Source: an uncultured Lysobacter sp. (GTDB taxonomy: Bacteria; Pseudomonadota; Gammaproteobacteria; Xanthomonadales; Xanthomonadaceae). From it: a stretch of 64,000 nt of DNA. Below are positions 28,246 through 47,188 of the stretch, in pieces. The notes beneath the pieces were generated by a model that did not search any database, had not been told where the DNA came from, and worked only from the letters and a program-made list of their open reading frames with translations. The stretch's first letter is position 1. The number at the start of each line of letters is the position of its first letter. Both the position numbers and the translations under genes were made by a program. The DNA lies in contig CAMLID010000002.1 of NCBI GenBank assembly GCA_946480055.1, positions 58,893 to 122,892 of the forward strand. The letters run 5' to 3'.

Positions 28246-28674
28246 TCAGCTGGCGATGTACCGCTGCAACTGGTCGAGTTCGAGCTGCTGGTCCTCGATC
28301 ACCGCCTTGACCAGGTCGCCGATCGAAACCACGCCCACCACCTGTCCGCCCTGCACCACCGGCAGATGGCGGATGCGGCGGTCGGTGACGATCTGCATGC
28401 AGCGCTCGGCGCTGTCGTCCAGGCCGACGCTGAGCACTTCGACGGTCATGATGTCGCGCACCGGCGTGTCCGCCGATGAACGCCCCTGCAGCACGATCTT
28501 GCGCGCGTAATCGCGCTCGGACAGGATCCCGGCCAATCGCGGGCCTTCCATTACCAATACCGCGCCGATGCGCTTTTCGGCCATCAGCCGGATCGCGTCG
28601 ATGACCGGCGCGTCCGGACCGATCGCGAACACTTCAGACGCTTTCGCTTCGAGCAGTTGCCGCACGGTACGCAT
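28246..28674 (-). CDS. CBS-domain pair protein
   Basis: 142 residues made almost wholly of two CBS motifs (about 8-62 and 72-128): VIDAIRLMAEKRIGAVLVMEGPRLAGILSERDYARK and RCMQIVTDRRIRHLPVVQGGQVVGVVSIGDLVKAVIEDQ. Such stand-alone pairs bind adenosine nucleotides and act as energy-state sensors. It overlaps the end of the GT2 gene by 41 bases on the same strand, so it is translated from the same message as that glycosyltransferase. Confidence 0.93.
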   Translation of the reverse strand: MRTVRQLLEAKASEVFAIGPDAPVIDAIRLMAEKRIGAVLVMEGPRLAGILSERDYARKIVLQGRSSADTPVRDIMTVEVLSVGLDDSAERCMQIVTDRRIRHLPVVQGGQVVGVVSIGDLVKAVIEDQQLELDQLQRYIAS

Positions 28675-29674: not shown

Positions 29675-29732
29675 GCGCTCAATCATAGCCGCCGGGCGTG
29701 GCGGCGGTGTGCGCAGGCTTGGCCGGAATCGC

Positions 29733-29753
29733 GCCGCGGCCCGGCCCCGCGGC
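29733..29753 (-). terminator. Hairpin after mtgA
   Basis: GCCGCGG (29733-29739) and CCGCGGC (29747-29753) form a 7-bp stem with a 7-base loop just after the mtgA stop and before the GT2 gene. No T-run follows, so read-through or attenuation is possible. Confidence 0.35.
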
Positions 29754-29758
29754 CGTGC

Positions 29759-30502
29759 TCAGTCGATCTGCTTGAGGTAGCCGTTGCCGCCGATGTAGCG
29801 CATCTGACGCTGGATCGCGTTGGCGCGGCGCTGCACGTAAGGACCGGGGCGGGCGATGCTGTAGCGCTTGGGGTTGGGCAGTACCGCGGCCATGCGCGCG
29901 GCTTCGGCCGGGCCCAGGCGCGAGGCGTCCTTGCGGTAGTAGGTGCGGGCGGCGGCCTGGGCGCCGTATACGCCGTCGCCGAACTCGGCGATGTTGGCGT
30001 AGACCTCGATGATGCGGTGCTTGGGCCACATCAGCTCGATCAGCAGGGTGTACCAGGCCTCGATGCCCTTGCGCACCCAGCTGCGGCCGCTCCACAGGAA
30101 CAGGTTCTTCGCGGTCTGCTGGCTGATGGTGCTGCCGCCGCGGACCTTGCGGCCGCGCGCGTTGCTCTTGCGTGCCTTCTCGATGGCCTTGAGGTCGAAG
30201 CCGAAGTGCTCGGCGAAGTTCTGGTCCTCCGAGGCGACCAGCGCGACCGGCACGTTGGACGAGATCTCGTCCAGGTCGCGCCAGTCGTAGGCGACGCGGA
30301 AGCCGAAATCGCCGCTGCCCCAGGCCTCGAACTGGCGCACGACCATGAAGGCGCTGAGCGGCGGATCGATGAAGCGCAGCACCGCGACCTGCAGGATCGA
30401 GGCGGCCAGGAACAAGAAGGGCAGCGCCAGCAGCCAGCGCAGCCAACGGCGGCGGCGGCGGGGCGCCGCCGGTGCGGGGACGGACTCGTTCACGACTTGC
30501 AC
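29759..30502 (-). CDS. mtgA: Monofunctional biosynthetic peptidoglycan transglycosylase
   Basis: 247 residues with one N-terminal membrane helix (about 22-43) and a GT51 domain. Catalytic motif 1 is [15 protein letters not shown] (Glu catalytic base), motif 2 [17 protein letters not shown], then [50 protein letters not shown]. It polymerises lipid II into glycan strands outside the cytoplasmic membrane. There is no transpeptidase domain. It is divergent from hslO and leads a mtgA-GT2-CBS transcription unit. Confidence 0.96.
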
Positions 30503-30557
30503 TGCCTACGCTCCATCCCCATCTTGCCCGGTCTCCCCTTTCACGCGATCGCCCACA

Positions 30558-30575
30558 TTATCCGTGATCGGATAA
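30558..30575. promoter_or_regulatory. 18-bp palindrome in the mtgA/hslO divergent promoter
   Basis: TTATCCG (30558-30564) and CGGATAA (30569-30575) form a perfect 7-bp inverted repeat with a TGAT centre, between the divergent mtgA and hslO genes and 35 bp before the hslO start. It is a plausible operator for both; the regulator is unknown. Confidence 0.45.
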
Positions 30576-30610
30576 GAATGAAGCGCGCACCGCGCCGCAC
30601 GAGTCCCGCA

Positions 30611-31558
30611 ATGAACGATGCCACCCCCGCCCCCACCGATGCCGCCCGCGACGACCGCGACCGCCTGACCCGGTTCCTGATCGAAGGCGCCGGCGTGCGC
30701 GGCGTGCGCGTGCACCTGGACCAGACCTGGCGCCAGATCCGCGAGCGCGCCGAGTATCCGCCCGCGGCGGCCGAGCTGCTGGGCGAGGCCGCGGCCGCGG
30801 CGGCGCTGTTCACCGGCCATGCCAAGGTCGAGGGCCGGCTGTCCGTGCAACTGCGCGGCGACGGCGCCCTGCGCACCCTGTTCGCCGAATGCACCGCGGC
30901 CGGCACCCTGCGCGGCATCGCCCAACTGGCCGAGGAAGGCGGCGAGGTCTCGCGCGATCTGCGCCAGCTCGGCCCGGACGCGGTCCTGGCGATCACCATC
31001 GAGAACCCGCCGGTCGGCAGCCGCGCCGGCGACGGCCGCGACCCGGCCCGCTACCAGGGCCTGGTGGCGCTGGACTCGGATTCGCTCAGCGGCGCCTTCG
31101 AGGACTATTTCCGCCAGTCCGAACAGCTGCCGACCCGGCTGCTGCTGGTCGCCGACGAGCGCCAGGCCGCCGGCCTGATGCTGCAGAAGCTGCCCGGCGA
31201 CGGCGGCGACGAGGACGGCTGGGCCCGGGTCGGGGCCCTGTTCGACACCCTCCGGCCCGGCGAACTGCTGGATTGGGATACCGCCACCCTGCTGACCCGC
31301 CTGTTCCACGAGGACGGGATCCAGCTGCTGGGCGGCAAGGCGCTGAGCTTCGCCTGCTCCTGTTCGCGCGAACGGGTCGAGGCCATGCTGGTCTCGCTGG
31401 GCCAGCAGGAGGCCGAGGCGGCAGCCGCCGCGGCCGATGGCGAGGCCCATATCCGTTGCGAGTTCTGTGGCCAGAGCTATCGTTTCGGAGCCGAGCAGAT
31501 CGGCCGCCTGTTCGCGGTCGCGGCCGCCGAGATGGCGGGCCCGGACCGCCTCCAATAA
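30611..31558 (+). CDS. hslO: Hsp33 redox-regulated chaperone
   Basis: 315 residues. The C-terminal zinc redox switch has CxC (FACSCSRERVEAML) and CxxC (CEFCGQSYRF). The N-terminal holdase domain shows LDQTWRQIRERAEYPPAAAELLGEAAAAAALFTGHAKVEGRLSVQ and GTLRGIAQ. Under oxidative unfolding the cysteines form disulfides and release zinc, activating holdase activity in the cytoplasm. I chose ATG 30611 for its match with the family N-terminus. An upstream in-frame extension exists but lies in promoter DNA. Confidence 0.95.
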   Translation: MNDATPAPTDAARDDRDRLTRFLIEGAGVRGVRVHLDQTWRQIRERAEYPPAAAELLGEAAAAAALFTGHAKVEGRLSVQLRGDGALRTLFAECTAAGTLRGIAQLAEEGGEVSRDLRQLGPDAVLAITIENPPVGSRAGDGRDPARYQGLVALDSDSLSGAFEDYFRQSEQLPTRLLLVADERQAAGLMLQKLPGDGGDEDGWARVGALFDTLRPGELLDWDTATLLTRLFHEDGIQLLGGKALSFACSCSRERVEAMLVSLGQQEAEAAAAAADGEAHIRCEFCGQSYRFGAEQIGRLFAVAAAEMAGPDRLQ

Positions 31559-32956: not shown

Positions 32957-33065
32957 TTTACCACCTGATCGGTACGATCCAGCGCACCTTGCTGGAATTG
33001 GCGTCTTGCTTGACTCCGCCGGCTTGGTCCCATGGGTACCACCATTCCGATTTCTGGAGAGAGAG

Positions 33066-35945
33066 ATGACCTTTAAGACCACCCAGCTCCGCGACGCGAT
33101 TACCTTCGCGCTCGCCGTGGGCGCCACTGCCGCCGCCGGCACGGGTGTGGCCTTTGCGCAAGAAGAGAGCAAAGATCCCACCACCCTCGATCGCATCGAA
33201 GTAACCGGTTCGCGCATCAAGCGCGCCGACATCGAAACCTCGCAGCCGATCTTCTCGCTCAGCCGCGAAGACATCAGCGCCCAGGGCCTGACTTCGGTCG
33301 GCGACGTGATCCAGAACATCACGTCCAACGGCTCAACGCTGAACAGCACGTTCAACAACGGCGGTAACGGCGAAACCCGCGTCAACCTGCGCAACATCGG
33401 CTCGAACCGCACCCTGGTGCTGGTCAACGGCCGTCGTTGGGTCGGTGGCACCGGTCTCGGTGGCGCGGTCGACCTCAACACCATCCCGACCGCAGCCGTC
33501 GAGCGCATCGAAGTCCTGAAGGACGGCGCCTCGACCATCTACGGTTCCGACGCCATCGCCGGCGTCGTCAACGTCATCCTGCGCTCGAACTTCGAAGGCG
33601 CCGAAGCCAACGCCTACATCGGCTCGTTCGACAAGGGCGACGGCAACCGCCAGGCCTACGACTTCACCATCGGCACCTCGTCGGACCGCTGGAGCGCGAT
33701 GCTCGGCGTGGGCTACGTCAAGGAAGAGCCGGTCATGGCCGGCGACCGCAAGATCTCGGCAGTGCCGAACTTCGGCACCACCGCGGGCTTCGGCAACAGC
33801 AGCACCACGCCGCAGGGCCGCATGCAGCTGCGCGGCACCACGCGCTTCTTCGTGCCCACCCCGACCGCGGGCAGCCCGGCCGGCACCAAGACCTATGACG
33901 GCACCACCGACGCTTACAACTTCGCGCCGGACAACTACCTGCTGACCCCGCAGGAGCGCAAGTCGCTGTTCGCTTCGGGCACGCTGGACATCACCGACAA
34001 CGTCCGCTTCAAGGTCACCACGACCTACAACGAGCGCGTGTCGGAGCAGCTGCTCGCCGCCGGTCCGATCAACCTCGGCACCTCGGCTCCGGGCACCAAC
34101 GGCTCGAACATCTTCATCTCGTCGCAGAGCATCTACAACCCGTACGGCGCGGATGTCACGAGCATCCAGTACCGTCCGGTCGAGACCGGTGGCCGTAGCT
34201 TCAACCAGGAAGTCAGCACCTACGCCTTCAACGGCGGCCTGGAAGGCAACTTCAACCTCGGTGAGCGCACCTTCGATTGGGAAGCCGGCTACTTCTACGG
34301 CGAGAACAAGCGCTACGACACGACCTACGGTCTGTACAACATCAGCGCGCTTCGCAATGCGCTGGGGGCTTCGTTCCGTGACGCCCAGGGCGTCGCTCGC
34401 TGCGGCACGCCGACCGCCGTCATCGCCGGCTGCGTCCCGCTGAACCTGCTCAGCGGCGGCGGCGGCATCACCCCGGAAATGGCTGCTTACTCGAGCTTCG
34501 TTGCGCACGATTCGCGCGGCTACAAGCAGAAGACCTACTACGCCAACATCGGCGGCGACATCGTCGACCTGCCGGGCGGCCCGCTGGCCTTCTCGTTCGG
34601 TATGGAACACCGCACCGAAAGCGGCTTCGACCAGCCCGACGCGATCGTCAACACCGGCGACACCACCGGTAATGCCCGTAAGTCGACCGCCGGCGGCTAC
34701 TCGCTGGACGAGGCCTACCTCGAACTGGCCGTGCCGGTCCTGGCCGACGTTCCGTTCGCCAAGCTGCTCGACTTCTCGATCGCTACCCGCTACTCGGACT
34801 ACAGCAACTTCGGCGACACGCTGAACAGCAAGTTCGGTTTCCGCTGGAAGCCGATCGACGACCTGATGGTTCGCGGTAACTGGTCGGAGGGCTTCCGCGC
34901 TCCGTCGATCGCCGAGCTGTTCACCGGTCAGTCCGACACCTTCCAGACCATGGCCGATCCGTGCCGCGGTTTCCTGGGTGCGGTGGCCAACACCGATCGT
35001 CCGGCCTCGTGCGCCGCGGCTGGCATCCCGGCTTATGTCCAGCCGAACAACCAGATCCGCACCACCACCGGCGGCAACCCGGACCTGGGTCCGGAGAAGT
35101 CCACCTCCAAGACCCTGGGCTTCGTGTACAGCCCGAGCTGGGCCGAAGGCCTCGACATCTCGCTGGACTGGTGGGAAATCGAGATCAAGGAAGCCCTCGT
35201 CACCCTCACCGCGCAGACCATCGCCGACAATTGCTACCGCAACGGCGACGCCGGCGCTTGCTCGCTGATCACCCGTGCTTCGGACGGCCAGATCTCCGGC
35301 CTGAACGCCACGCCGAACAACGTCGGCACGCTGTTCAACGAGGGCTACGACCTGACCGTCGGCTACAGGCTCCCGGAAACCGCGTGGGGTAAGTTCCGCG
35401 TCGTGTGGGATACCACCTACCTGGCCAAGTCGACCAGCGACAGCAACGCCGACGGCTCGATCTCGGACGACCCGGTCACGGGCGACGGCGGCAATCTGGT
35501 TGGCGAGTATCAGGGCGGCTCGGCGCGTAGCAACAACTGGCGCATCCGTTCCAACATCTCGCTGAACTGGGAGAAGGGCGACTTCGGTGCGACCTGGTTC
35601 GTGCGCTACTACTCCGCTCAGGAAGAACAGTGCCAGGGCACCCTGCTCGCCCAGCGCTTCAACGTCTGCTCGGATCCGAACCGCATCACCAACCTCGACG
35701 GCAACGACGCGAACCTGACTCCGGACGGCCCGCAGCTGCGTCCGCAGAACAAGATCCCGTCGACGGTCTACAACGACGCGAGCGTCTACTTCAACGCGCC
35801 GTGGAATGCCCGCATCACCGTTGGCGTGAACAACCTCTTCGACAAGGATCCGCCGCGCGCCTCGTCGACCTTCGCCAACAGCTTCGACCCGCAGTACGAA
35901 ATCCCGGGCCGCTTCATCTACTTCCGCTACTCGCAGAAGTTCTGA
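33066..35945 (+). CDS. TonB-dependent receptor (paralogue 1)
   Basis: 959 residues. Signal peptide about 1-31 (ends AFAQ). The plug domain begins [30 protein letters not shown] and includes [13 protein letters not shown] and [28 protein letters not shown]. The C-terminal barrel ends in [12 protein letters not shown] with a terminal Phe, as needed for BAM insertion. No N-terminal STN domain is present, so it is not a sigma/anti-sigma transducer. Receptors of this long type import oligosaccharides or peptides across the outer membrane. It is a close paralogue of the next gene; frequent GCT and GGT codons hint at strong expression. GGAGAGAGAG precedes the ATG. Confidence 0.95.
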
Positions 35946-36060: not shown

Positions 36061-36167
36061 ACTTGGCCGACGCGGCTAGTATCGGCCCAGCCTTGCCGAT
36101 TTAGGCCATTCATTTTGCGCCACCCGGCGGGCTCCCATGGGACACCAAGACTGACTTGGAGAGAGAG

Positions 36168-39161
36168 ATGACCTTGAAGACCACCCAGCTCCGCGACGCG
36201 ATTACCTTCGCGCTCGCCGTGGGCGCCACCGCAGCGGCGGGCACCGGCGTAGCCTTTGCCCAGGAACCCGAAAAGGAAGCCACCACCCTCGATCGCATCG
36301 AGGTGACCGGCTCGCGCATCAAGCGCACCGACATCGAAACCTCGCAGCCGGTGTTCTCGCTGAGCCGCGACGACATCCAGGCCCAGGGCCTGACCTCGGT
36401 CGGCGATGTGATCCAGAACATCACCGCCAACGGCTCCACCCTCAACAGCACCTTCAATAACGGCGGCAACGGCGAAACCCGCGTCAGCCTGCGCAACCTC
36501 GGCCCCAACCGCACCCTGGTGCTGGTCAACGGCCGTCGTTGGGTCGGCGGCACCGGTCTCGGTGGCGCGGTCGACCTCAACACCATCCCGACCGCAGCCG
36601 TCGAGCGCATCGAAGTCCTGAAGGACGGCGCCTCGACCATCTACGGTTCCGACGCCATCGCCGGCGTCGTCAACGTGATCCTGCGCCAGAACTACGAAGG
36701 CGCCGAAGCCAACGCCTACCTGGGCACCTTCTCCGACGGCGACGGCTTCCGCGAAGCCTACGACTTCACCGTCGGCGCCGCCTCCGACCGCTGGACCGCG
36801 ATGTTCGGCATCGGCTACGTCAAGGAAGAGCCGGTCATGGCCGGCGATCGCGCGATCTCGAAGGAGCCCGTCGCCGGCACCGGCAACGCCTTCGGCAGCT
36901 CGACCGTGCCCAACGGCCGCTTCGCCCTCTGCGGCGGCACCTACGATCCGACCACCGGCACCTGCTCGGTCGGCGAGACCCGCCCGAACGGCACCGCCGG
37001 TCAGTTCACCTACAACGACGGCCAGTCGGGCCTGAATTGGCGCAACCGCACCGGCGCGGACATCTACAACTTCGCCCCGGACAACTACCTGCTGACCCCG
37101 CAGGAGCGCAAGTCGCTGTTCGCGTCCGGTTCGCTGGACATCACCGACAACCTGCGCTTCAAGACCACGCTGACCTACAACAACCGCAAGTCGGAACAGT
37201 TGCTGGCGGCGATGCCGATCGTGCTCGGTAGCGGCCCGGGCGCCAACGCCCAGTCCAAGCAGCTCACGATCTCGGCGCAGAGCATCTACAACCCCTTCGG
37301 CCAGACCGTGTCGCGCATCCAGCGCCGCGCGATCGAAGCCGGTTTCCGCACCTTCGAGCAGGACGTCGATACCTTCGCCGCCAACTTCGGTCTCGAAGGC
37401 ACCCTGAACGTCGGCAGCAAGCCGTTCGACTGGGAAGCCGGTTACTTCTACGGCGAGAACAAGCAGAACAACGTCACCGAAGGTCTGTTCAACGTGCTGG
37501 CGCTGCGCAACGCGCTCGGCCCGTCCTTCCGCGACGCCCAGGGCGTGGCCCGTTGCGGTACCCCGACCGCGGTCATCACCGGCTGCGTGCCGCTGAACCT
37601 GCTCGGCGCCGTCGGCACGATCACCCCGGAAATGCTTGCCTACTCGACCTTCGTCGCCCACGACCAGCTCGGCTACAAGCAGAAGAGCTACTACGCCAAC
37701 ATCGGCGGCGACCTGTTCGACCTGCCGGGCGGCCCGCTGGCCTTCTCGTTCGGCCTCGAGCACCGCAGCGAAAACGGCTTCTCGCAGCCGGACGCGCTGA
37801 TCGCCTCGGGCAACACCACCGGTAACGCCACGGCTCCGACCGCCGGCGGCTACAGCCTGGACGAGGCCTACCTCGAACTGGCCGTGCCGGTCCTGGCCGA
37901 CGTGCCGTTCGCCAAGCTGCTCGACTTCTCGGTGGCCACCCGCTACTCGGATTACAGCAACGTCGGCGACACGCTCAACAGCAAGTTCGGTTTCCGCTGG
38001 AAGCCGATCGACGACCTGATGATCCGCGGCAACTGGTCGGAGGGCTTCCGCGCTCCGTCCATCGGCGAGCTGTTCACCGGTATCGGCGACTCGTTCCCGA
38101 CCATCGCCGATCCTTGCGCCCTCGCCGGCTTCGGCAACCTGGCGCCCGACGCCCAGGCCCGATGCATTGCGCAGGGCGTCCCGGCCGGCGGTTACGACCA
38201 GGGCAACCCGCAGATCCGCATCAACTCGGGCGGCAATCCGAACCTGAAGCCGGAAAGCAGCGAATCGACCACCCTGGGCTTCGTCTACAGCCCGAGCTGG
38301 ATCGAAGGTTTCGACGTCAGCCTCGACTGGTGGAAGATCGAGATCGAAGACGCGCTGACGCTGCCGACCGGTCAGTTCATCGTCGACGAGTGCATCGTCG
38401 GTAACGTCCAGTTCTACTGCAACATGTTCACCCGCAACCCGGGCGGCAGCCTCAACCTGACCGCGCAGCCCGGCAACGTCGGCGGCATCAACACCGAAGG
38501 TTACGACCTGACCATCGGCTACAAGCTGCCGGAAAACTCGTGGGGCAAGTTCAGCTTCAGCTGGGATACGACCTACCTGGCCAAGTCGGAATTCGACCTG
38601 GACGGCGACGGCCGCTTCAACGAGCGCAAGAACGACGTGCCGGCTGTCGGCGCTCCGGTCGCAACCTGGGGCATCGACGAGTCCAACAACGCTCCGGGCC
38701 TGTACGCGCAGAATTCCAACGCCTGGCGTATCCGCTCCAACCTGGCCATGCGCTGGGAGAAGGGCGACTTCGGCGCGACCTGGAACGTGCGTTACTTCTC
38801 GGGCCAGGAAGAGGACTGCCAGACCTTCGTGGACTACGGCTACAGCTTCCTCTGCTCCGATCCGGACCGCTTCACGGCTGAGCCGCAGGACACCAACGGC
38901 AACGGCGTTTGGGACGGCACCGGCGCCGGTGGCGATAGCCTGGTCCCGGTCCAGCACGCCCGCAACCACATCGGTGCGACCACCTACCACGACGCCAGCG
39001 TCTACTGGAACACGCCGTGGAACTCCAAGGTCACCATCGGCGTGAACAACCTGTTCGACAAGGATCCGCCGCGTTCGGTGTCGGCCTTCGCCAACAGCTT
39101 CGACCCGCAGTACGAAGTCCCGGGCCGCTTCGTCTACTTCCGCTACGCGCAGAAGTTCTGA
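36168..39161 (+). CDS. TonB-dependent receptor (paralogue 2)
   Basis: 997 residues, with the same signal peptide and plug as paralogue 1 ([58 protein letters not shown]) and a barrel ending GRFVYFRYAQKF. Some stretches are almost identical in DNA to paralogue 1 (for example about 36509-36681), while extracellular-loop regions differ, including an insertion near residues 245-285 with two Cys (CGGTYDPTTGTCSVG). The two probably bind different ligands. No STN domain is present. The 2OG oxygenase gene follows on the same strand after a terminator. Confidence 0.95.
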   Translation: MTLKTTQLRDAITFALAVGATAAAGTGVAFAQEPEKEATTLDRIEVTGSRIKRTDIETSQPVFSLSRDDIQAQGLTSVGDVIQNITANGSTLNSTFNNGGNGETRVSLRNLGPNRTLVLVNGRRWVGGTGLGGAVDLNTIPTAAVERIEVLKDGASTIYGSDAIAGVVNVILRQNYEGAEANAYLGTFSDGDGFREAYDFTVGAASDRWTAMFGIGYVKEEPVMAGDRAISKEPVAGTGNAFGSSTVPNGRFALCGGTYDPTTGTCSVGETRPNGTAGQFTYNDGQSGLNWRNRTGADIYNFAPDNYLLTPQERKSLFASGSLDITDNLRFKTTLTYNNRKSEQLLAAMPIVLGSGPGANAQSKQLTISAQSIYNPFGQTVSRIQRRAIEAGFRTFEQDVDTFAANFGLEGTLNVGSKPFDWEAGYFYGENKQNNVTEGLFNVLALRNALGPSFRDAQGVARCGTPTAVITGCVPLNLLGAVGTITPEMLAYSTFVAHDQLGYKQKSYYANIGGDLFDLPGGPLAFSFGLEHRSENGFSQPDALIASGNTTGNATAPTAGGYSLDEAYLELAVPVLADVPFAKLLDFSVATRYSDYSNVGDTLNSKFGFRWKPIDDLMIRGNWSEGFRAPSIGELFTGIGDSFPTIADPCALAGFGNLAPDAQARCIAQGVPAGGYDQGNPQIRINSGGNPNLKPESSESTTLGFVYSPSWIEGFDVSLDWWKIEIEDALTLPTGQFIVDECIVGNVQFYCNMFTRNPGGSLNLTAQPGNVGGINTEGYDLTIGYKLPENSWGKFSFSWDTTYLAKSEFDLDGDGRFNERKNDVPAVGAPVATWGIDESNNAPGLYAQNSNAWRIRSNLAMRWEKGDFGATWNVRYFSGQEEDCQTFVDYGYSFLCSDPDRFTAEPQDTNGNGVWDGTGAGGDSLVPVQHARNHIGATTYHDASVYWNTPWNSKVTIGVNNLFDKDPPRSVSAFANSFDPQYEVPGRFVYFRYAQKF

Positions 39162-39303: not shown

Positions 39304-39963
39304 ATGCCCTTCGAGCTCTACCCCGCCTTTTCGGTCCCCTTCGCGCAGGACTTCGTGCCCAGTCCCGAAGGCCTCAACGCGCAGCTGAAATCGCTGCTGC
39401 TGACGCGCGAGAAGCAAGGCGGCTATGCCAATCCGAACCCGTCGCTGAAGCAGCAGCCCGGCGTGTTCGAAAGCGACTTCAACCTGTTCGCCTGGCCGGA
39501 CGCCTGCGTGCAGCAGCTGCGCCAGTTCTGCTGGACCGTCCTGGGCCGCACCATCCAGGAGCTCAACGGTTACAGCGTCGAGGAAATGCAGCGGCTGCAG
39601 ATCTTCTCGCACACCTGGTACCACGTGACCCGCCACGGCGGCTTCACGATCCTGCACACCCACCCGATGGCGTCCTGGTCGGGCGTGTACTGCGTGACGC
39701 CGGGCGAGATGCCGGACGATCGCCCCGAATCGGGCGTGCTGCGGTTCCACAACCCGCACCACTACAGCAACTACTTCATGGACGCCGGCAACATGCGCCA
39801 GCAGGCGCCTTACCACCACGGCACCTGGAGCATCCGCCTCCAACCCGGCCAACTGGTGCTGTTCCCGTCCTGGCTGCAGCACGAAGTCCTGCCCTTCTAC
39901 GGCAACGACGAGCGCATCACCATCGCCTTCAATTGCTGGTTCGGAATGAAAGACGCCGCCTGA
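39304..39963 (+). CDS. 2-oxoglutarate/Fe(II) oxygenase (2OG-FeII_Oxy_5 type)
   Basis: 219 residues. It matches the putative 2OG-Fe(II) oxygenase family TIGR02466/PF13759: LHTHPMASWSGVYCV (H118 and H120), GVLRFHNPHHY, and QLVLFPSWLQHEVLPFYGNDERITIAFN with the distal His193 and the 2-oxoglutarate-binding Arg204. It should hydroxylate an unknown acceptor in the cytoplasm. Members of this family often lie beside TonB-dependent receptors, as here. No signal peptide. Confidence 0.85.
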   Translation: MPFELYPAFSVPFAQDFVPSPEGLNAQLKSLLLTREKQGGYANPNPSLKQQPGVFESDFNLFAWPDACVQQLRQFCWTVLGRTIQELNGYSVEEMQRLQIFSHTWYHVTRHGGFTILHTHPMASWSGVYCVTPGEMPDDRPESGVLRFHNPHHYSNYFMDAGNMRQQAPYHHGTWSIRLQPGQLVLFPSWLQHEVLPFYGNDERITIAFNCWFGMKDAA

Positions 39964-39979
39964 GCGGCGGCGTCGTTTC
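39952..39979. terminator. Hairpin between the 2OG oxygenase and DUF4097 genes
   Basis: GACGCCGC (39952-39959) pairs with GCGGCGTC (39967-39974), overlapping the oxygenase stop, followed by GTTTC. It can serve both convergent genes. Confidence 0.55.
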
Positions 39980-40000
39980 GTCCCGGCAGGCGCGCGCGGC

Positions 40001-40930
40001 TCAGTCGAGCTGCAGGGTCGCGTCGCCGGAGAAGGTCTCGATCCGGACCTCGCCGCTGCCGTTGCCGTAGCGGTGCTCGAAGCTCGACCCCGGGCCGTGC
40101 TTGGGCTTGACGATCTGCGCATCCGGCGCCGACAGGTCGCCGCTGAAGCTTTGGCCGTGCACGGTCGCCGACAGGTTGCGCGGCAGGGTCAGCTGGACAT
40201 CGCCGCTGACCGTTTCCACCGAGATCTCCCCGTTGCCGGCCAGCGCGGTCGCCAGGCGGATGTCGCCGGATACCGAGTTGCCGCTGAAGCGGTGCAGCGA
40301 CGATTCGCGCACCGTCACGTCGACCCGGCCGGACACCGTCTCCACGTCGACATCGCCGTCCAGGCGGCCGCGCAACTGCATGTCGCCGCTGACCGTCTCG
40401 GCGTTGACCTTGCTGCTGTTGAGGGTCAGGGTGAGATCGCCGCTGACGCTGTCGATTCTGGCTTCTCGTGGCGCCGCGGCCACCGCGACATCGCCGCTGA
40501 CGCTGTCGATCGACAGCACCGAGGAGGCCACGCCGGTGACGTCGATGTCGGCCGAGACGCCGTCGATCTCGACGTCGGCACGCAGCGGCAGAGTCACCTT
40601 CAGGTCGGTGGGTTCGCTCTTGTCGCCGCCGACCAGGAAGCCCATGCCGCTGCCGCGGTTGGGGTACTTGACCTTGATCGACAGACGCTCGCCGTTGCCT
40701 TCGATCTCCAGCTTCTCGACGCCGTTGCCGAGGCTGCCTTCGATCTTCACTTCCGGCCGGTCCCAGGCGCGCACGTCGATGCGGCCTTTGACGTTTTCGA
40801 TCTCGACCCGTCCTCGCGGATCCAGCGGGCGGGTCTGGTTGATGGGGGTAGCCGCGAACGCCGGGGCGACGGCCAAAGCCAAGCCGAGGGCGAGTCCGAG
40901 CTTGCTTGCGTGATGGGATGCGCGGGTCAT
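40001..40930 (-). CDS. DUF4097-type periplasmic beta-helix protein (putative adhesin)
   Basis: 309 residues. A signal peptide (about 1-28, VAPAFA) is followed by a region of short repeated strands in which VSGD/VSGR recurs every ~20 residues (IDSVSGDVAVAA, IDSVSGDLTLTL, AETVSGDMQLRG, VETVSGRVDVTV, NSVSGDIRLA, VETVSGDVQLTL). This is the DUF4097/DUF4098 right-handed beta-helix pattern. It follows the ECF sigma and putative anti-sigma genes on the same strand and is a likely product of that envelope-stress regulon. Its function is not established. Confidence 0.85.
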   Translation of the reverse strand: MTRASHHASKLGLALGLALAVAPAFAATPINQTRPLDPRGRVEIENVKGRIDVRAWDRPEVKIEGSLGNGVEKLEIEGNGERLSIKVKYPNRGSGMGFLVGGDKSEPTDLKVTLPLRADVEIDGVSADIDVTGVASSVLSIDSVSGDVAVAAAPREARIDSVSGDLTLTLNSSKVNAETVSGDMQLRGRLDGDVDVETVSGRVDVTVRESSLHRFSGNSVSGDIRLATALAGNGEISVETVSGDVQLTLPRNLSATVHGQSFSGDLSAPDAQIVKPKHGPGSSFEHRYGNGSGEVRIETFSGDATLQLD

Positions 40931-40946
40931 GGTCGTCCTCCGGTAA

Positions 40947-41468
40947 TCAGGTGTAGGCCACGCGCTGGGCGAGCGCGAGGCGTCGTGCGTAGGTGCGGCG
41001 CAGCTGATCCAGCAGCAGGCGCGAATCGGGGTCGTGGGCCAGCGCATCCAGGATCAGGGCGGCGTTGCGGTCCAGTTCGTCGAAGGTGGGCTGCAGGATG
41101 GTCGCGGCCGCGGCCGGCGCGGTGCGCTGCATTTCGTGCATCGCGGCCTGGTACTGCAGGGTCATGCCGGCGGCTTCGCGTTGGACCAGCGACTCGGTCT
41201 GCGCCTGCGGCGCGTCGTTCGCGGCCTGGTCGCGCCATACGCCGGTGAAGCCGATCGCGAGCGCCAGGGTCGCGGCGACCGCGAACGGCGCCAGCCAGCG
41301 CGGACGCGGCGCGCGTACCGGCGCGGCGACCTGCGGCTGCAGGCGTGCGGCGATCCCGGGCCACAGGTCGGCGGCCGGCGGCTGGTCGCGGCGCAGCGCG
41401 CGCAGCTGAAAGCGCAGGGCGTCGGGCAGTTCGCCGTCCGCTGCGGGGTCTCGATGTTCGGTGTTCAT
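40947..41468 (-). CDS. Putative anti-sigma factor (single-helix membrane protein)
   Basis: 173 residues: a cytoplasmic N-terminal ~57 residues (MNTEHRDPAADGELPDALRF), one transmembrane helix at about 58-76 (WLAPFAVAATLALAIGFTG), and a periplasmic helical tail. No zinc ZAS motif (HxxxCxxC) is visible, so it is not a classical zinc anti-sigma. Its start overlaps the ECF sigma stop (ATGA), and this layout supports an anti-sigma role. The sequence alone would be inconclusive. Confidence 0.7.
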   Translation of the reverse strand: MNTEHRDPAADGELPDALRFQLRALRRDQPPAADLWPGIAARLQPQVAAPVRAPRPRWLAPFAVAATLALAIGFTGVWRDQAANDAPQAQTESLVQREAAGMTLQYQAAMHEMQRTAPAAAATILQPTFDELDRNAALILDALAHDPDSRLLLDQLRRTYARRLALAQRVAYT

Positions 41469-42070
41469 GCCTGTCCTCCTAGCCGTTCGCGCAACAATCC
41501 GCGCGCCCGGTGCAATTGCGCCTTGCTGCTGCCGACCGCCATGCCGAGTTCGGCGGCGATCTCCTCATGCTTCCAGCCTTCCACGTCGTACAGCACCAGC
41601 ACCGCGCGGGCACGCGGCGGCAGGCTGGCGACGGCACGCTCCAGGTCCATCGACAGCGCGGTGATGTGCCCGGCCGAGTCGGCGCTGCCGACCAGTTCGA
41701 ACACCTCGTCGTCGCCATCCTCCTGCGGCTTGCCGCGGCGGCTGCGCAGCTCCATCAGCGCGGTATTGACCGCCAGCCGATGCAGCCAGGTCGTGAAGGC
41801 CGACTCGAACCGGAATGCCGGCAGCGCCTGCCAGGCCCGCACGAAGGCTTCCTGGGTGAGGTCCTCGGCACGGGCGCCGTGCTGGCCGACCAGCCGCGCG
41901 ATCACGCCGTGGACCCGGCCCGCGTGCTGCCGGTACAAGGCCTCGAAGGCGCGGACATCGCCGCCGGCCGCCGCACGCACCAGGGCGAGGTCGCCGTCGG
42001 CGCCGGCCGTTTCGGGCTTGGCGTCGCGAGTGGTCCAGTCTTGGGTCACGTAAGCGGTCAGCATGTCCAT
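41465..42070 (-). CDS. ECF RNA polymerase sigma factor
   Basis: 201 residues from ATG 42070 (alternatives 42085 and 42064). Region 2 is DVRAFEALYRQHAGRVHGVIARLVGQHGARAEDLTQEAFVRAWQALPAFRFESAFTTWLHRLAVNTALMELR; region 4 is LPPRARAVLVLYDVEGWKHEEIAAELGMAVGSSKAQLHRARGLLRERL. It belongs to the RpoE-like ECF group. GGA seven bases before ATG 42070 favours that start. An AT-rich TATTTAAA upstream may be part of an autoregulated promoter. Its stop overlaps the putative anti-sigma gene, and DUF4097 follows. Confidence 0.93.
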   Translation of the reverse strand: MDMLTAYVTQDWTTRDAKPETAGADGDLALVRAAAGGDVRAFEALYRQHAGRVHGVIARLVGQHGARAEDLTQEAFVRAWQALPAFRFESAFTTWLHRLAVNTALMELRSRRGKPQEDGDDEVFELVGSADSAGHITALSMDLERAVASLPPRARAVLVLYDVEGWKHEEIAAELGMAVGSSKAQLHRARGLLRERLGGQA

Positions 42071-42143
42071 GGGATGTCCGGCCATGGCTCCGGGTTTAAA
42101 TACCGTCCCGGCAGCGCGGACGGACAGCGGGCGGACGGGAGGC

Positions 42144-43748
42144 TCAGATCAGGCCCTGCGCGCCCAGACGCTCCAGCAGCGGCTGCAGGTAAGGCTCGTA
42201 CGGCTTCCAGGCCGCGCCGCGGTTGGTCAGGATGCCCTGGCGCACGCTCGCGCTGCTGGCGGTGGACACCGCGCCCGAGGAGCGCTCCACCTGCAGCGCT
42301 TCGGCCTCGTACGGCAGGCCGCAGAACTCGAACACCCGCCGCGCGGTGGCCTCGGTATCGCTGACCAGCGCGTCGTAGGACACGTCCAGGATGCGGTCCG
42401 GCATGACCTCGCGCCAGTGCTGCATCAGGCCGCTGTAGTGGCCGAAGTAGTTGCCCAGGTCGTTCTGGTCGAACGAATACAGCGCCGCGTTCGAGAAGTA
42501 GGTGCGCAGGTTGGAGAAACAGGTGTCGACCGGGTCGCGCACCATGTGCAGGATGCGCGCGTTCGGCAGCGCCTTGGCGATGAAGCCGGCGTTGGTCAGG
42601 TTGGGCGGCAGCTTCTCGGTCAGGAACGGCTTGCCCTTGGCGCGCCAGCGCGAGCCGGCGATGAAGCCGCGCCCGATCGCCTCGAAGTCGGCCTCGGCCA
42701 GGCGCTGCACCGACAGCAGGTCCAGCGCCTGCGAGCATTTGTGGTCGGTCGCGACCTTGATCTGGGCGGTGAAGGCGTAGGTCTCGCCGCCGTCGGATAC
42801 CAGGCTATGGCCGCCGAGGATGCGTTCGAGCAAGGTCGTGCCGGAACGGTGCATGCCGACGATGAAGATCGGCGTGTACTCGTGCTCGCGCGGCTGCGCG
42901 CGCACGAACTCGGGCGTGCACAAAGCCTTGATCGCAGCGAACAGCTCAGTGGTCTTGCTCTCGTTGTAGGGGTCGAGCTTGCGCTTGGCGGCGCAACCGC
43001 GCTCCAGCGCCCGGAACGATTCCTCGTAGCGCTTGAGGTCGTGCAGTTCGTTGTGCAGCGCGTAGGCGAAATAGGCCTCGGCCTCGGTGCCGGCCGGGAC
43101 GCGCGCGATTTCGCGCTGCAGCCGTTCGACGTGGTTGTCGGCGTCGCTCCACTTGCGCAGCCGCGACAGCACCCAATGCGCCTGCGGGAAGCTGGGCGAG
43201 ATCCTGATGCAGGTCTCCAGCTCGGTTTCGGCCTCTTCCATGCGGCCCAGGAACATCAGCACCGTGCCGCGCAGGTAGTGCGGATGCGCGGCGTTGGGGT
43301 CCAGCGCGGCGGCGCGGCTGACCAGCTCCAGGGCCATTTCCTGATCGCCGACCGAGCTCACGATCAGCGCCATCTCGGTCAGCATCGGCGGCGACGCCGA
43401 ACGCAGGAAACCCGAATGCCGGACCAGGTCGAGCAGGATCGCCGCCTCGTGGAATTGGCGCAGCTTGCGGCCCAGCTCCATCACCAGACCCGGGTGCGCG
43501 TTGGCCAGCGGCAGCGCCGCGAACAATCGCGCGCGCGCATCGCGATAGCGATCCAACTGCAGCAACGTGCTGCAGCTCTTGAGCAGCGCCGGCAGATGCC
43601 CGGGTTCGTGGGCGACGATCTGCTCGAAGCAGTCGGCGGCCTCGCGCCACTGCTTGCGGGTGATGTAATCCTCGCCGTTGCGCCACAGGCGCTGCTGCTT
43701 GGACTCGCCGGCCGCGGCCGGTTGGATATTGGACGGTGGACGGTTCAC
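42144..43748 (-). CDS. Tetratricopeptide-repeat sulfotransferase
   Basis: 534 residues from a GTG at 43748, which overlaps the upstream stop (GTGA). Residues about 20-250 are TPR repeats (GEDYITRKQWREAADCFEQIVAHEPGHLPALLKS; HYLRGTVLMFLGRMEEAETELETCIRISP). Residues about 290-534 are a sulfotransferase domain: IFIVGMHRSGTTLLERIL (296-311) is the 5'-phosphosulfate loop and HMVRDPVDTCFSN the 3'-phosphate motif. The architecture resembles tyrosylprotein-sulfotransferase-like bacterial enzymes. It is the last gene of the PEPCK operon and likely sulfates a protein, peptide or glycan made by its neighbours. Confidence 0.85.
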   Translation of the reverse strand: MNRPPSNIQPAAAGESKQQRLWRNGEDYITRKQWREAADCFEQIVAHEPGHLPALLKSCSTLLQLDRYRDARARLFAALPLANAHPGLVMELGRKLRQFHEAAILLDLVRHSGFLRSASPPMLTEMALIVSSVGDQEMALELVSRAAALDPNAAHPHYLRGTVLMFLGRMEEAETELETCIRISPSFPQAHWVLSRLRKWSDADNHVERLQREIARVPAGTEAEAYFAYALHNELHDLKRYEESFRALERGCAAKRKLDPYNESKTTELFAAIKALCTPEFVRAQPREHEYTPIFIVGMHRSGTTLLERILGGHSLVSDGGETYAFTAQIKVATDHKCSQALDLLSVQRLAEADFEAIGRGFIAGSRWRAKGKPFLTEKLPPNLTNAGFIAKALPNARILHMVRDPVDTCFSNLRTYFSNAALYSFDQNDLGNYFGHYSGLMQHWREVMPDRILDVSYDALVSDTEATARRVFEFCGLPYEAEALQVERSSGAVSTASSASVRQGILTNRGAAWKPYEPYLQPLLERLGAQGLI

Positions 43749-44779
43749 TGCGATTCCCAATGCGGTGTGGCCCGCGCCGCCGGACGCATCGCCGGCAGCA
43801 CATGTTCGCCCAGCCAGTCGCGCGCGCGCGCCAGCGGGTCGGCATACATGCCGGTCACGATATCCGCTTCCTGTGCCCGGCGCTGCGCGTCGTAAGCGGT
43901 TTCGACCGCCTTGGCGTTGCGTCCGGCGACCGCCTCGGCCTGCGCGAGCAGGGCCGCGCGCGGCGCCGGCAGGCCCAGCCACTGCTCGCAGGCCCAGGCG
44001 GTGCCGGCGACGTCGTCGAGCAGGGTCTGCATGTCGAGCAGGCGCACGCGCCCGGCGCCGGCGGTTTCGACCAGGTCCAACACCAACTCGCGCTGCGCCG
44101 CCCACTGCAGACCGGCCGCGCACAGCAGGTCCGGCGGTTGCAGCGCGGTCGCGGACAGGCGCTGGTGGAACCCGCCGGCACGCAGCGCGCGTTCGGCCAG
44201 CTCGGGTATCCGCGCCTGCGATTCGGGGCGCTTCTTCAGATTCGAGACCAGGAAATCGTCCAGCGACGAGGTCAGCACCAGCGCCCGGCTGGCCGGAGCC
44301 GCGTCCAGCAGCGGCAGCGCGACGTTGAGCGCGGCATGGGTCGGCTTGACCAGGACCGCGCCGTCCGCGTGCCAGGGCCGCGCCAGCAGGCGCACGCTGG
44401 TCGCGACCAGATCGCCCAAGGCCTGACCCTCGTGACGCGCATCGCCGAGCCGGCGCAGCAGCATCGGCTCCTTCAGCGCGACCTGGTACGGCGGCAGATG
44501 CAGCGCGCGCGCCAGCAGGGTCGAGCCGCAGAACGAGGTGTGGAACAGCCAGCCCAGGGGCGCCTGCGCCAGGCCGGCGACGTCGATGGCGTCGGCCGGC
44601 AGCGGCCGCGCCTGCGCCAGCGGCGCGTCGATGCGGGTGTCGAGGAAGCTGGATCGTTCCAGCACGCCTTCGTCCAGGCGCAGGAAGCCGTACACCCGTC
44701 CGGGTACGTGCAGATCGACCGGGAACCAGCGCGCGTCGCCCAGTTCGGGCGACGGCGGCGCCGCGCCGGCGGCGGTCAT
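43745..44779 (-). CDS. Sulfotransferase-fold protein
   Basis: 344 residues from ATG 44779, overlapping the upstream 2OG oxygenase (ATGA). LGWLFHTSFCGSTLLARALHLP (about 76-96) is a P-loop-like 5'-phosphosulfate-binding motif with CGSTLL. VLVKPTHAALNV and LDDFLVSNLKKR are consistent with the distant sulfotransferase-like group found beside TonB receptors in Caulobacter and Xanthomonas relatives. There is no membrane anchor. It is divergent from known enzymes, so PAPS use is an inference. Translation is coupled on both sides. Confidence 0.65.
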   Translation of the reverse strand: MTAAGAAPPSPELGDARWFPVDLHVPGRVYGFLRLDEGVLERSSFLDTRIDAPLAQARPLPADAIDVAGLAQAPLGWLFHTSFCGSTLLARALHLPPYQVALKEPMLLRRLGDARHEGQALGDLVATSVRLLARPWHADGAVLVKPTHAALNVALPLLDAAPASRALVLTSSLDDFLVSNLKKRPESQARIPELAERALRAGGFHQRLSATALQPPDLLCAAGLQWAAQRELVLDLVETAGAGRVRLLDMQTLLDDVAGTAWACEQWLGLPAPRAALLAQAEAVAGRNAKAVETAYDAQRRAQEADIVTGMYADPLARARDWLGEHVLPAMRPAARATPHWESQ

Positions 44780-45378
44780 CCCGGGCCGTGGCCGGCGGCG
44801 ACGGCCACGCGTTCGAACTTGATCGCGAAGGTGTAGCGCGGCGCGTAGCAGATCCGGTTCGGCGGCCGTCCGACATGCTTGATCGCACCGTCGAAGATCA
44901 CCAACCGGCCCGGACGCGGCGTGACCGCGCAGGCGACCTCGTCGGCGGCGTCGTAGAACATGGTCTCGCCGCCCCACTCCAGGTCCCACTGCTCGCACAA
45001 GTACCACAGCGCGGTCAGGTCGTGCTGCTCCGGCAGGCAGTCGGTATGGGTGAACAGCATATCGCCGAAGCTGGCGACGTTGGTGTAGGCGCGGTACGGC
45101 TTGTAGCCGAAGCTCGGGTCGGTGAAACCGAGCACCGCACGTCGGGTCAGGTCGAAGATCGGCTGCTGCACCAGGGCTTCGAGTTTCACCTCGGTGGCCC
45201 AGTGCTTGTAATCGTTGGTTTCCGGCCGCGCGACCTCGGTGCGGGTGAACGGCGCCCGCGCCAGGCCGCGCACGTAGTCGCCGACGTTGCTCAGCAAGCC
45301 GTCGTACACCCGCAGCGGGCGGCCGTCGATCAGGAGTTCACGACTGGCCGCGAGCGCGGCGGGATGTGCGACGGACAT
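44776..45378 (-). CDS. 2-oxoglutarate/Fe(II) oxygenase (prolyl-hydroxylase-like)
   Basis: 200 residues. The double-stranded beta-helix metal site is H111-T-D113 (FTHTDCLPEQ) with distal His168 (GAIKHVGRPPN) and Arg181 (APRYTFAIKF) for 2-oxoglutarate. WGGETMFYD (135-143) is the characteristic strand of prolyl-4-hydroxylase-like enzymes. It should hydroxylate a protein or small molecule in the cytoplasm. It begins 7 bases after the PEPCK stop and overlaps the sulfotransferase-fold gene, so the three are expressed together. Confidence 0.88.
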   Translation of the reverse strand: MSVAHPAALAASRELLIDGRPLRVYDGLLSNVGDYVRGLARAPFTRTEVARPETNDYKHWATEVKLEALVQQPIFDLTRRAVLGFTDPSFGYKPYRAYTNVASFGDMLFTHTDCLPEQHDLTALWYLCEQWDLEWGGETMFYDAADEVACAVTPRPGRLVIFDGAIKHVGRPPNRICYAPRYTFAIKFERVAVAAGHGPG

Positions 45379-45385
45379 GGAGGTC

Positions 45386-47188
45386 TCAGCGGGCCAGTGC
45401 GGCGGCGATGCGCTGCTGTTCGTCCTTCAGCGCCTGCGGCATGCGCGGACCGTACTCGTCCAGGTAGCCGCCGATGCTGTCGAACTCGGCGCTCCAGCCG
45501 GCGTGATCGAAGCCGAACAGCTTGGCGCGCGCTTCGTCCGACAGGCCGATGCCGTCGAGGTTGAGGTCGGTGGTCGCCGGCAGGTGGCCGATCGGCGTTT
45601 CCACCGCGCCCGCCTCGCCCTTGACCCGGCCGATCATCCACTCGAGCACGCGCAGGTTGTCGCCGAAACCCGGCCACAGGAACTTGCCGTCGTCGCCCTT
45701 GCGGAACCAGTTGACGTGGAAGACCTTGGGCAGCTGGGCCTGCTCGCTGTCGAACGACAGCCAGTGGCTGAAGTAGTCGGCGAAGTTGTAGCCGCAGAAC
45801 GGCTTCATCGCCATCGGATCGCGGCGCATCACGCCGACCGCGCCGGTCGCGGCGGCGGTGGTTTCCGAGCCCATCGCGGCGCCGACCAGCACACCGTGGG
45901 TCCAGTCGCGCGCCTCGAACACCAGCGGCACCAGCGAAGCGCGGCGGCCGCCGAACACGATCGCCGAGATCGGCACGCCCTGCGCGTCCTCGGCCTTGTC
46001 CGAATAGCTCGGGCACTGCTTGGCCGAGACGGTGAAGCGCGAATTCGGGTGCGCGGCCGGGCCCTTGGCCGGATCAAAGGCGTTGCCGCGCCAGTCGGTG
46101 ACCGGAGTCTGACCGTTGTCCAGGCCTTCCCACCACGGCTGGCCGCCGGCGGTGACGCCGACGTTGGTGAAGATGGTGTCGCGCTGGATCGTCGCCAGCG
46201 CGTTCGGGTTCGACTTGCTCGAAGTGCCCGGAGCGACGCCGAAGAAACCGGCTTCCGGATTGATCGCGTACAGACGGCCGTCGGCGCCCGGACGCATCCA
46301 GCAGATGTCGTCGCCGACCGTCCAGACCTTCCAGCCGGCATCGCGGTAACCCTGCGGCGGGATCAGCATCGCCAGGTTGGTCTTGCCGCAGGCCGAGGGG
46401 AACGCGGCGGCGACGTAGTGGGTCTCGCCCTGCGGGTTTTCGATGCCCAGGATCAGCATGTGCTCGGCCAGCCAGCCTTCGCTGCGCGCCTGGTGCGAGG
46501 CGATGCGCAGGGCGTGGCACTTCTTGCCCAGCAAGGCGTTGCCGCCGTAGCCGGAGCCGAACGACTTGATCGTCAGCTCTTCCGGGAAATGCATGATGAA
46601 ACGGCGCTCGGGGTCGAGCTCGCCGATCGAATGCAGGCCGCGCACGAACGTTCCCTCGCGCTCGATCCGGGCCAATGCCGGCGCGCCCATGCGGGTCATG
46701 ATGCGCATGTTGGCGACCACGTACGGGCTGTCGGTGATCTCCACGCCGCAACGCGACAGCGGCGAATCGATCGGCCCCATGCAGTACGGGATCACGTACA
46801 GGGTGCGGCCGCGCATGCAGCCGTCGTACAGCGCGTCCATCTTGGCGTGGGCCTCGGCCGGCGCCATCCAATGGTTGTTCGGACCGGCGTCGTCGCGCTC
46901 GCGCGTGCACACGAAAGTCAGGTGCTCGACGCGGGCGACGTCGTCGGGATGCGAACGGTGCAGGTAGCTGCCCGGGTGGGTTTCCCCGTTGAGCTTCTCC
47001 AAGGTGCCGTCGGCGAGCATGCGCTCGATCAGGGCGGCGTTCTCGGCGTCGCTGCCGTCGCACCATTGGATATGGTCGGGACGGGTCAGGGCCGCGACCT
47101 GCGCGACCCACTCGTTCAATGCGGCCAAACGGCTGCCTGCGCTCCCCGGCGCGGGAGCAGTCGGTACGTCTTTGGAAATGGCGTTCAC
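45386..47188 (-). CDS. pckG: Phosphoenolpyruvate carboxykinase (GTP)
   Basis: 600 residues, the GTP-dependent gluconeogenic enzyme that makes PEP from oxaloacetate. The nucleotide-binding loop AAFPSACGKTNLAMLIPP holds the conserved Cys; VGDDICWMRPGADGRLYAINPEAGFFGVAPGT contains the metal-binding Asp, and GSGYGGNALLGKKCHALR the substrate loop. The start is GTG 47188 with GGAGG nine bases upstream; no closer ATG fits. The TetR-family gene lies 28 bases upstream in the same direction, and a hydroxylase/sulfotransferase set follows. Full length and intact. Confidence 0.97.
   Translation of the reverse strand: MNAISKDVPTAPAPGSAGSRLAALNEWVAQVAALTRPDHIQWCDGSDAENAALIERMLADGTLEKLNGETHPGSYLHRSHPDDVARVEHLTFVCTRERDDAGPNNHWMAPAEAHAKMDALYDGCMRGRTLYVIPYCMGPIDSPLSRCGVEITDSPYVVANMRIMTRMGAPALARIEREGTFVRGLHSIGELDPERRFIMHFPEELTIKSFGSGYGGNALLGKKCHALRIASHQARSEGWLAEHMLILGIENPQGETHYVAAAFPSACGKTNLAMLIPPQGYRDAGWKVWTVGDDICWMRPGADGRLYAINPEAGFFGVAPGTSSKSNPNALATIQRDTIFTNVGVTAGGQPWWEGLDNGQTPVTDWRGNAFDPAKGPAAHPNSRFTVSAKQCPSYSDKAEDAQGVPISAIVFGGRRASLVPLVFEARDWTHGVLVGAAMGSETTAAATGAVGVMRRDPMAMKPFCGYNFADYFSHWLSFDSEQAQLPKVFHVNWFRKGDDGKFLWPGFGDNLRVLEWMIGRVKGEAGAVETPIGHLPATTDLNLDGIGLSDEARAKLFGFDHAGWSAEFDSIGGYLDEYGPRMPQALKDEQQRIAAALAR

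Follow-up and report, generated by a model that had tools for sequence, protein, structure and literature searches.

The window analysed here is a stretch of 64,000 nucleotides from an uncultured Lysobacter species, with a G+C content of 68.6%. It contains two genes for TonB-dependent receptors (TBDRs) and, following them on the plus strand, a gene for a 2OG oxygenase, OxyA; the minus strand then carries, from left to right, genes for a DUF4097 protein, an anti-sigma-like protein, a sigma factor, a sulfotransferase with TPR repeats (TPRST), a second sulfotransferase-fold protein (MID), a second 2OG oxygenase (OxyB) and PEP carboxykinase (PEPCK) (Table 1). An earlier note on this DNA had placed OxyA downstream of TonB receptors and had described OxyB, a diverged sulfotransferase (our MID) and TPRST as coupled on the opposite strand. 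Both descriptions are accurate: OxyA follows TBDR2, and each junction between the three coupled genes is a 4-bp overlap (ATGA for OxyB/MID, GTGA for MID/TPRST). PEPCK and OxyB are separated by 7 bp, and TBDR2 and OxyA by 142 bp, with a stem-loop-like repeat 3' of TBDR2; the likelier start of TBDR2 is an ATG 12 bases into the open reading frame (ORF). The DUF4097/anti-sigma/sigma factor group is missing in loci L003 and L009-L014, and probably lies outside the module. The locus is near-identical to that of Lysobacter sp. Root76 (L001), with identities of 96% for OxyB, 97% for MID, 100% for TPRST and 99% for OxyA. Elsewhere in the window, another sulfotransferase-like protein (PF03567, 51.8 bits) is encoded at 24676-25299 (minus strand), about 15 kb from the block, and a 996-aa ORF at 28568-31558 (plus strand) has an Hsp33 domain confined to its end (residues 698-973), with a long front part that has no Pfam match, yet matches relatives in pieces. 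An ARAGORN tRNA-Gly call at 35661-35739 (minus strand), inside the TBDR1 coding region, is probably spurious.

Table 1. Genes of the TBDR-linked block and its flanks, with positions in the window and supporting matches.
Feature	Position	Strand	Matches and remarks
TBDR1, TonB-dependent receptor (Plug + barrel)	33006..35945	+	PF07715 82.2 bits, PF00593 120.8 bits; plug loop NNGGNG
TBDR2, TonB-dependent receptor	36156..39161	+	PF07715 85.0 bits, PF00593 119.8 bits
OxyA, 2OG-Fe(II) oxygenase (PF13759)	39304..39963	+	PF13759 75.2 bits; TIGR02466 61.8 bits, slightly below the cut-off of 62.5
DUF4097 protein, anti-sigma-like protein, ECF-type sigma factor	40001..42085	-	Optional neighbour group
TPRST, TPR repeats + sulfotransferase domain	42144..43748	-	PF13469 157.8 bits (curated cut-off 27), PF00685 51.7 bits (curated cut-off 22); R301, E322, K379, R404
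MID, sulfotransferase fold, both phosphate-contacting arginines absent	43745..44779	-	Fold and alignments
OxyB, 2OG-Fe(II) oxygenase (PF13640), prolyl-hydroxylase-like fold	44776..45378	-	H111, D113, H168, R175, R181
PEPCK, PEP carboxykinase (GTP)	45386..47188	-	NF003253 864.8 bits; upstream neighbour and synteny landmark, outside the module

The sulfotransferase domain of TPRST, which is related in sequence to TPST1 and TPST2, scores above the curated cut-offs of both families in Table 1. It has the canonical PAPS residues, with all four listed positions kept in 12 of 12 aligned rows; from TPST work, we take R301 and R404 to be the arginines that contact the 5'- and 3'-phosphates, and the Glu and Lys to be catalytic. 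Its domain and residues make TPRST a plausible, if putative, PAPS-dependent sulfotransferase. OxyA belongs to PF13759 and has the conserved His and Arg residues of a 2OG-Fe(II) oxygenase, H118, H120, H193 and R204 being kept in 24/24 aligned rows (mostly from Lysobacteraceae, with one locus counted twice). Likewise, the OxyB residues in Table 1 are kept in 52/52 rows, and comprise the His-x-Asp...His iron-ligand pattern together with a distal Arg. The closest folds to OxyB are PHD2 and the EF-Tu prolyl hydroxylase (P4H) of Pseudomonas putida, at 14-18% identity; Foldseek also places small-molecule hydroxylases (9blq, 9ei6 and 9ei7) near OxyB, which counts against a receptor as the acceptor. 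The nearest NCBI family to OxyB is named FlmC family 2OG oxygenase (NF052475), for which OxyB scores 132.2 bits, below the curated cut-off of 240. Since Caulobacter FlmC is, in the part of the source consulted, said to resemble cytidylyltransferases (PMC7591256), we dropped the name and took no function from it. A match of OxyB to the repetitive VopV chain among PDB entries, with no single stretch passing alone, we took as noise.

MID has a sulfotransferase fold that resembles tyrosylprotein sulfotransferase, with TPST1 nearest; it has no family match in Pfam or NCBIfam at E-values up to 0.1, although one homologue, P0049, is listed with PF13469. MID retains Glu104 and Lys145. By contrast, the positions of the 5'- and 3'-phosphate sites, F83 and S171, both lack Arg in two alignments, of 64/64 and 23/23 homologues, and MID may therefore not use PAPS as a donor, judging by its residues. 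Hence, of the PAPS binding that had been expected of the sulfotransferase-fold proteins, the part concerning TPRST stands, with both arginines kept, and the part concerning MID is in doubt, with both missing.

The MID-bearing block is found at 15 loci in Lysobacteraceae, one of them filed as a Cupriavidus MAG. TPRST follows MID in 14 of these loci and PEPCK flanks in 14, while OxyB precedes MID in 11; further along, 13 loci have OxyA and TBDR2 (TBDR2 adjoins the module in L001 and L003-L014; the L002 sequence stops short of both genes), and 14 have a TBDR of some kind nearby. We compared 16 genomes, namely G025, G279 and 14 from the nearest genus: six have all of OxyA, OxyB and TPRST, and the remaining ten have none of the three. 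This pattern and the 15-locus comparison confirm that the genes co-occur in other genomes, as the earlier note had anticipated. The gene set is nonetheless modular: three of the six co-presence genomes (L141-L143) have no MID at the locus, and L011-L013 carry MID without OxyB. That note had also proposed hydroxylation that creates an OH for later sulfation. The chemistry is plausible, given the PAPS residues of TPRST, the metal-ligand-like residues of OxyA and OxyB, and an APS kinase in 14/14 genomes searched; a fixed order of steps gains no support, MID or OxyB being absent from these loci. Looser versions of the block recur in other gammaproteobacterial families, and related loci carry extra genes for a TPR-AspH protein (L066, L073), a Sel1-2OG protein (L062), a TPR-fused OxyA-type enzyme (L068) or a methyltransferase (L060), such that TPR arms are found on three kinds of enzyme: sulfotransferase, AspH and OxyA-type. 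A further P-loop family with an SGGT motif occurs in related loci (L060:11491-12297, L062:6474-7250 and L071:9204-9992), and matches PF13469 weakly at most (19.5 bits in L071; none in L062). Of 10 genomes without the module we examined three, all Lysobacter, and these have two or three TBDRs next to PEPCK, with a PF05118 Asp/Asn beta-hydroxylase about 3 kb from PEPCK and TPR matches in two of the three.

Our main new result is that TPRST goes with TBDRs. Searching with TPRST (E-values up to 1e-25) identified 22 genes, in 10 of 20 genomes, and all 22 share a locus with a TBDR, at a distance of up to ~6.2 kb. Indeed, for all eight stand-alone TPRST genes (L147-L154), a TBDR is directly adjoining; nine TBDR neighbours of these genes were scanned, and a Plug domain was found in all nine and a barrel in eight. 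Based on the 18-45 plug matches per genome, the chance product for adjacency in 8/8 loci is roughly 1.3e-14, a value that assumes a density of one gene per 1000 bases and treats the loci as independent. As a control, we analysed 20 regions around other TBDRs of the same genomes, of which L130 has no upstream flank; G025 C64, which turned out to adjoin a TPRST (L147), was omitted, as were four G115 sites (C82 at 41 kb, C100, C23 and C39); no module enzyme scored at least 100 bits, and there were two weak matches, of 71 and 20 bits. Together with the co-presence of the enzymes, this linkage upholds the earlier view of a conserved module tied to TBDRs.

Other exported proteins also adjoin TPRST. 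There are 37 plasmid records with a TPRST relative, of which we examined 14, including 11 with annotation. Five of the annotated records have a TBDR nearby, either adjacent (H7, H11 and H13) or with one (H4) or two (H15) genes between, and in three others TPRST adjoins a gene for a porin (H20), an autotransporter (H19) or flagellin (H6), all three classes being confirmed by Pfam; H1, H8 and H10 have no exported surface protein near TPRST. Using our own ORFs for the three unannotated records, we detected a TBDR in the H2 stretch, and none in H3 or H5. No match to MID was found on plasmids, and two records with plasmid relatives of OxyA and OxyB (H21 and H34; 27-34% identity) have no TBDR within 5 kb. 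On plasmid pD4M1D of Paroceanicella profunda (L163:4421-7431), the TPR-sulfotransferase gene and a flagellin gene are immediate neighbours within a flagellar cluster, which may point to sulfation of the flagellin; similarly, TPR-sulfotransferase genes directly adjoin genes for a 1600-aa autotransporter (L161:166-7338) and a porin (L165:3819-7197). Three loci with both TPRST and MID (L070, L071 and L079) have no TBDR within the stretch examined; like the plasmid records that lack an exported neighbour, they count against the receptor as acceptor. The TPRST/MID clusters at L070:7095-10572 and L071:1-2911 are flanked by proteins that look secreted and contain Ig-like, cadherin-like or dockerin domains, and two of these proteins end in VPVPAAxWLFGSGLxGLxGVAxRRK-like tails.

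The position of hydroxylating and sulfating genes beside an uptake receptor here and in related bacteria suggests that these bacteria may chemically decorate their own receptors before export. We propose, as the best explanation, that the block is a protein-modification module dedicated to TBDRs and acting in the cytosol on the receptor before its export, with TBDR2 as both partner and acceptor; we put the probability of this reading somewhat below one half (about 0.45). What we observe is gene linkage, gene order, co-presence, folds and active-site residues; from these we infer that the enzymes act in the cytosol and that the receptor is the acceptor, as well as which residues are modified, in what order and to what benefit. 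The recurring element is a group of soluble, protein-modifying enzymes (TPR arms can occur on three kinds of them) encoded beside a protein that is exported unfolded; by the logic of FlmG (see below), this makes the receptor the most likely acceptor. Several observations argue for this: the joint presence (6/16) and absence (10/16) of OxyA, OxyB and TPRST, the TBDR near all 22 TPRST genes and directly beside the stand-alone ones with the control regions empty, the Asp/Asn beta-hydroxylase with TBDRs in module-less genomes, the flagellin, autotransporter and porin genes beside plasmid TPRSTs, and the proximity in fold of OxyB to PHD2 and the EF-Tu hydroxylase, and of MID to TPST1. TPRST, OxyA, OxyB and, probably, MID would be soluble cytosolic enzymes; no signal peptide was seen by eye on the module enzymes. 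The TPR arm of TPRST would grip the unfolded receptor precursor, whose side chains TPRST would sulfate with PAPS as donor; hydroxylation of residues in that chain would fall to the 2OG oxygenases, and MID would add another group, perhaps taken from a non-PAPS donor. The modified receptor would then be exported and inserted, and the modification could alter ligand binding, or could hide the receptor from phages and bacteriocins.

The main rival is that the enzymes synthesise, or complete, a diffusible small molecule (for example an amino acid, peptide or siderophore-like ligand, hydroxylated and sulfated), which the TBDR then takes up again. The TBDR linkage is equally compatible with such a ligand-making role, and small-molecule oxygenases lie near OxyB in fold. 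The receptor sequences bear on this alternative too. We built a tree of 39 TBDRs, 18 of them from the module and 21 others; on it, the module label requires four changes, versus a shuffled mean of ~13, and module TBDRs fall in three separate parts of the tree. A plug loop, NNGG[NS]G, is present in 16/18 module TBDRs and 1/21 others, or 4/21 others (L114-L116 and TBDR1) if D is allowed; TBDR1 of the window was counted as non-module despite adjoining TBDR2. The TBDRs of the three module-less Lysobacter genomes lack NNGG, one of them having NNGANG. The loop is placed where receptors meet ligands, as a ligand-making role would have it. It aligns with the ordinary plug loop of the colicin I receptor, and we therefore regard it as a correlate of the partnership rather than as evidence for the modified site. 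Moreover, TBDRs beside stand-alone TPRSTs belong to other subfamilies without the NNGG loop, such that no common site is seen, which counts against the receptor as acceptor. We also looked for a sulfation signature; acidic-tyrosine counts failed to separate module from other TBDRs at p < 0.02. Nonetheless, genes for scaffold-making, export or inner-membrane import do not recur in the loci examined, the TPR arms indicate polypeptide substrates, and the genes beside TPRST include some for flagellin, porin and autotransporter proteins. We consider a diffusible ligand unlikely, if a serious competitor.

A second possibility, distinctly less probable, is that there is no joint receptor function, and that the enzymes are merely neighbours that act on a surface glycan, another protein or different targets. 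The modularity of the block and the 142 bp and stem-loop-like repeat between TBDR2 and OxyA fit this idea, as do the surroundings of MID in other bacteria. The MID-family profile (E-values up to 1e-10) matches 35 of the 250 genomes searched for the order and 12 of the 369 searched for the class. The neighbourhoods we examined contain 75 MID genes, after removal of 10 duplicate loci, and 61 of these fall outside the 15-locus Lysobacteraceae set (L015 being counted in the 61). Within 8 kb of these 61 genes, there is a 2OG oxygenase in 38 cases, a TPRST in 19 and a TBDR in 15, with all three in eight; the commonest partner of MID overall is thus a 2OG oxygenase, and the scarcity of TBDRs counts against the receptor as acceptor. 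The 19 genes with TPRST have a TBDR in 10 cases and an oxygenase in 15, some others reaching contig or stretch ends, and the 42 without TPRST, which favour mere proximity, have an oxygenase in 23 and a TBDR in five. In L032-L046, MID-family genes are paired with a PKHD-type or fused 2OG oxygenase, without TPRST or TBDR, and in L035:8695-10718 the MID-family gene and oxygenase overlap by 4 bp. Against mere proximity stand the joint presence and absence of OxyA, OxyB and TPRST, the TBDR adjoining each stand-alone TPRST, and the lack of such enzymes near the 20 other TBDRs.

It is also conceivable, at low odds, that the module modifies a RiPP-like peptide whose precursor gene lies elsewhere in the genome. 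RaxST of Xanthomonas is a tyrosine sulfotransferase that, in the excerpted text of PMC4216712, is thought to act on a leader-bearing secreted molecule, and a table seen in part in PMC10040529 has lasso B2, sulfotransferases and an aspartyl beta-hydroxylase under adjacent cluster numbers. However, the block has no peptidase-transporter gene, and our search of the six gaps of the locus yielded four ORFs of 20-56 aa, none of them a credible precursor. The earlier note was thus right that no precursor gene is seen at the locus; its suggestion of a peptide or glycan acceptor finds no support, the recurring neighbours being exported surface proteins. Least probable of all, the enzymes might hydroxylate or inactivate a ligand inside the cell after import, as could be imagined from the 2OG oxygenases beside other TBDRs in piuA-piuC and fiu-ybiX, but sulfation after uptake has no obvious use and the block has no inner-membrane transporter.

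The chemistry, the folds and the cytosolic modification of exported proteins are already known. The pairs piuA-piuC and fiu-ybiX each combine a TBDR with a PKHD hydroxylase; they share with our block a 2OG oxygenase gene beside a TonB receptor, but lack a sulfotransferase, and their oxygenase family is not that of OxyA or OxyB. TPST1 and TPST2, which resemble TPRST in domain sequence and MID in fold, are Golgi enzymes without TPR arms, and have the two arginines that MID lacks. The TPR domain of FlmG in Caulobacter, as described in excerpts of PMC7591256, binds flagellin, which is modified in the cytoplasm. Like FlmG, TPRST is a presumably soluble enzyme with an N-terminal TPR arm and a C-terminal transferase, and its gene likewise lies beside one for an exported surface protein, here the proposed target; on the same partial source, FlmG differs in transferring pseudaminic acid rather than sulfate, and in having flagellin as a target to which binding is demonstrated. 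RaxST is similarly a bacterial sulfotransferase with a secreted target, from a related family, but its gene shares an operon with a type I secretion system, and the portion of PMC4216712 consulted reports neither a TPR arm nor an oxygenase partner. In the open-access literature searched, partly as excerpts (including PMC5945002, PMC8269204, PMC10040529, PMC2529317, PMC7591256 and PMC4216712), we found no description of a TBDR-sulfotransferase-2OG module or of the MID family; subscription papers were mostly outside this scope, and a description may be in print.

A wider version of our proposal, which we advance tentatively and on balance doubt, is that cytosolic TPR-armed sulfotransferases and hydroxylases form a widespread system that modifies outer-membrane receptors and other surface proteins ahead of their export, placing sulfate on Tyr or on hydroxylated residues in TonB receptors; MID would be a new class of transferase with the sulfotransferase fold, and its donor would lack a 3'-phosphate. 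Such a protein would illustrate the extent to which this fold can depart from PAPS. TonB receptors serve as entry points for nutrients, siderophore antibiotics, phages and bacteriocins. If modification of receptors before export is correct, their specificity would be set partly by hydroxylation and sulfation, and not by sequence alone; genes annotated as "TPR sulfotransferase", "TIGR02466" or "hypothetical" that adjoin TBDRs would gain a testable function, and bacterial protein sulfation would be open to test in harmless soil bacteria.
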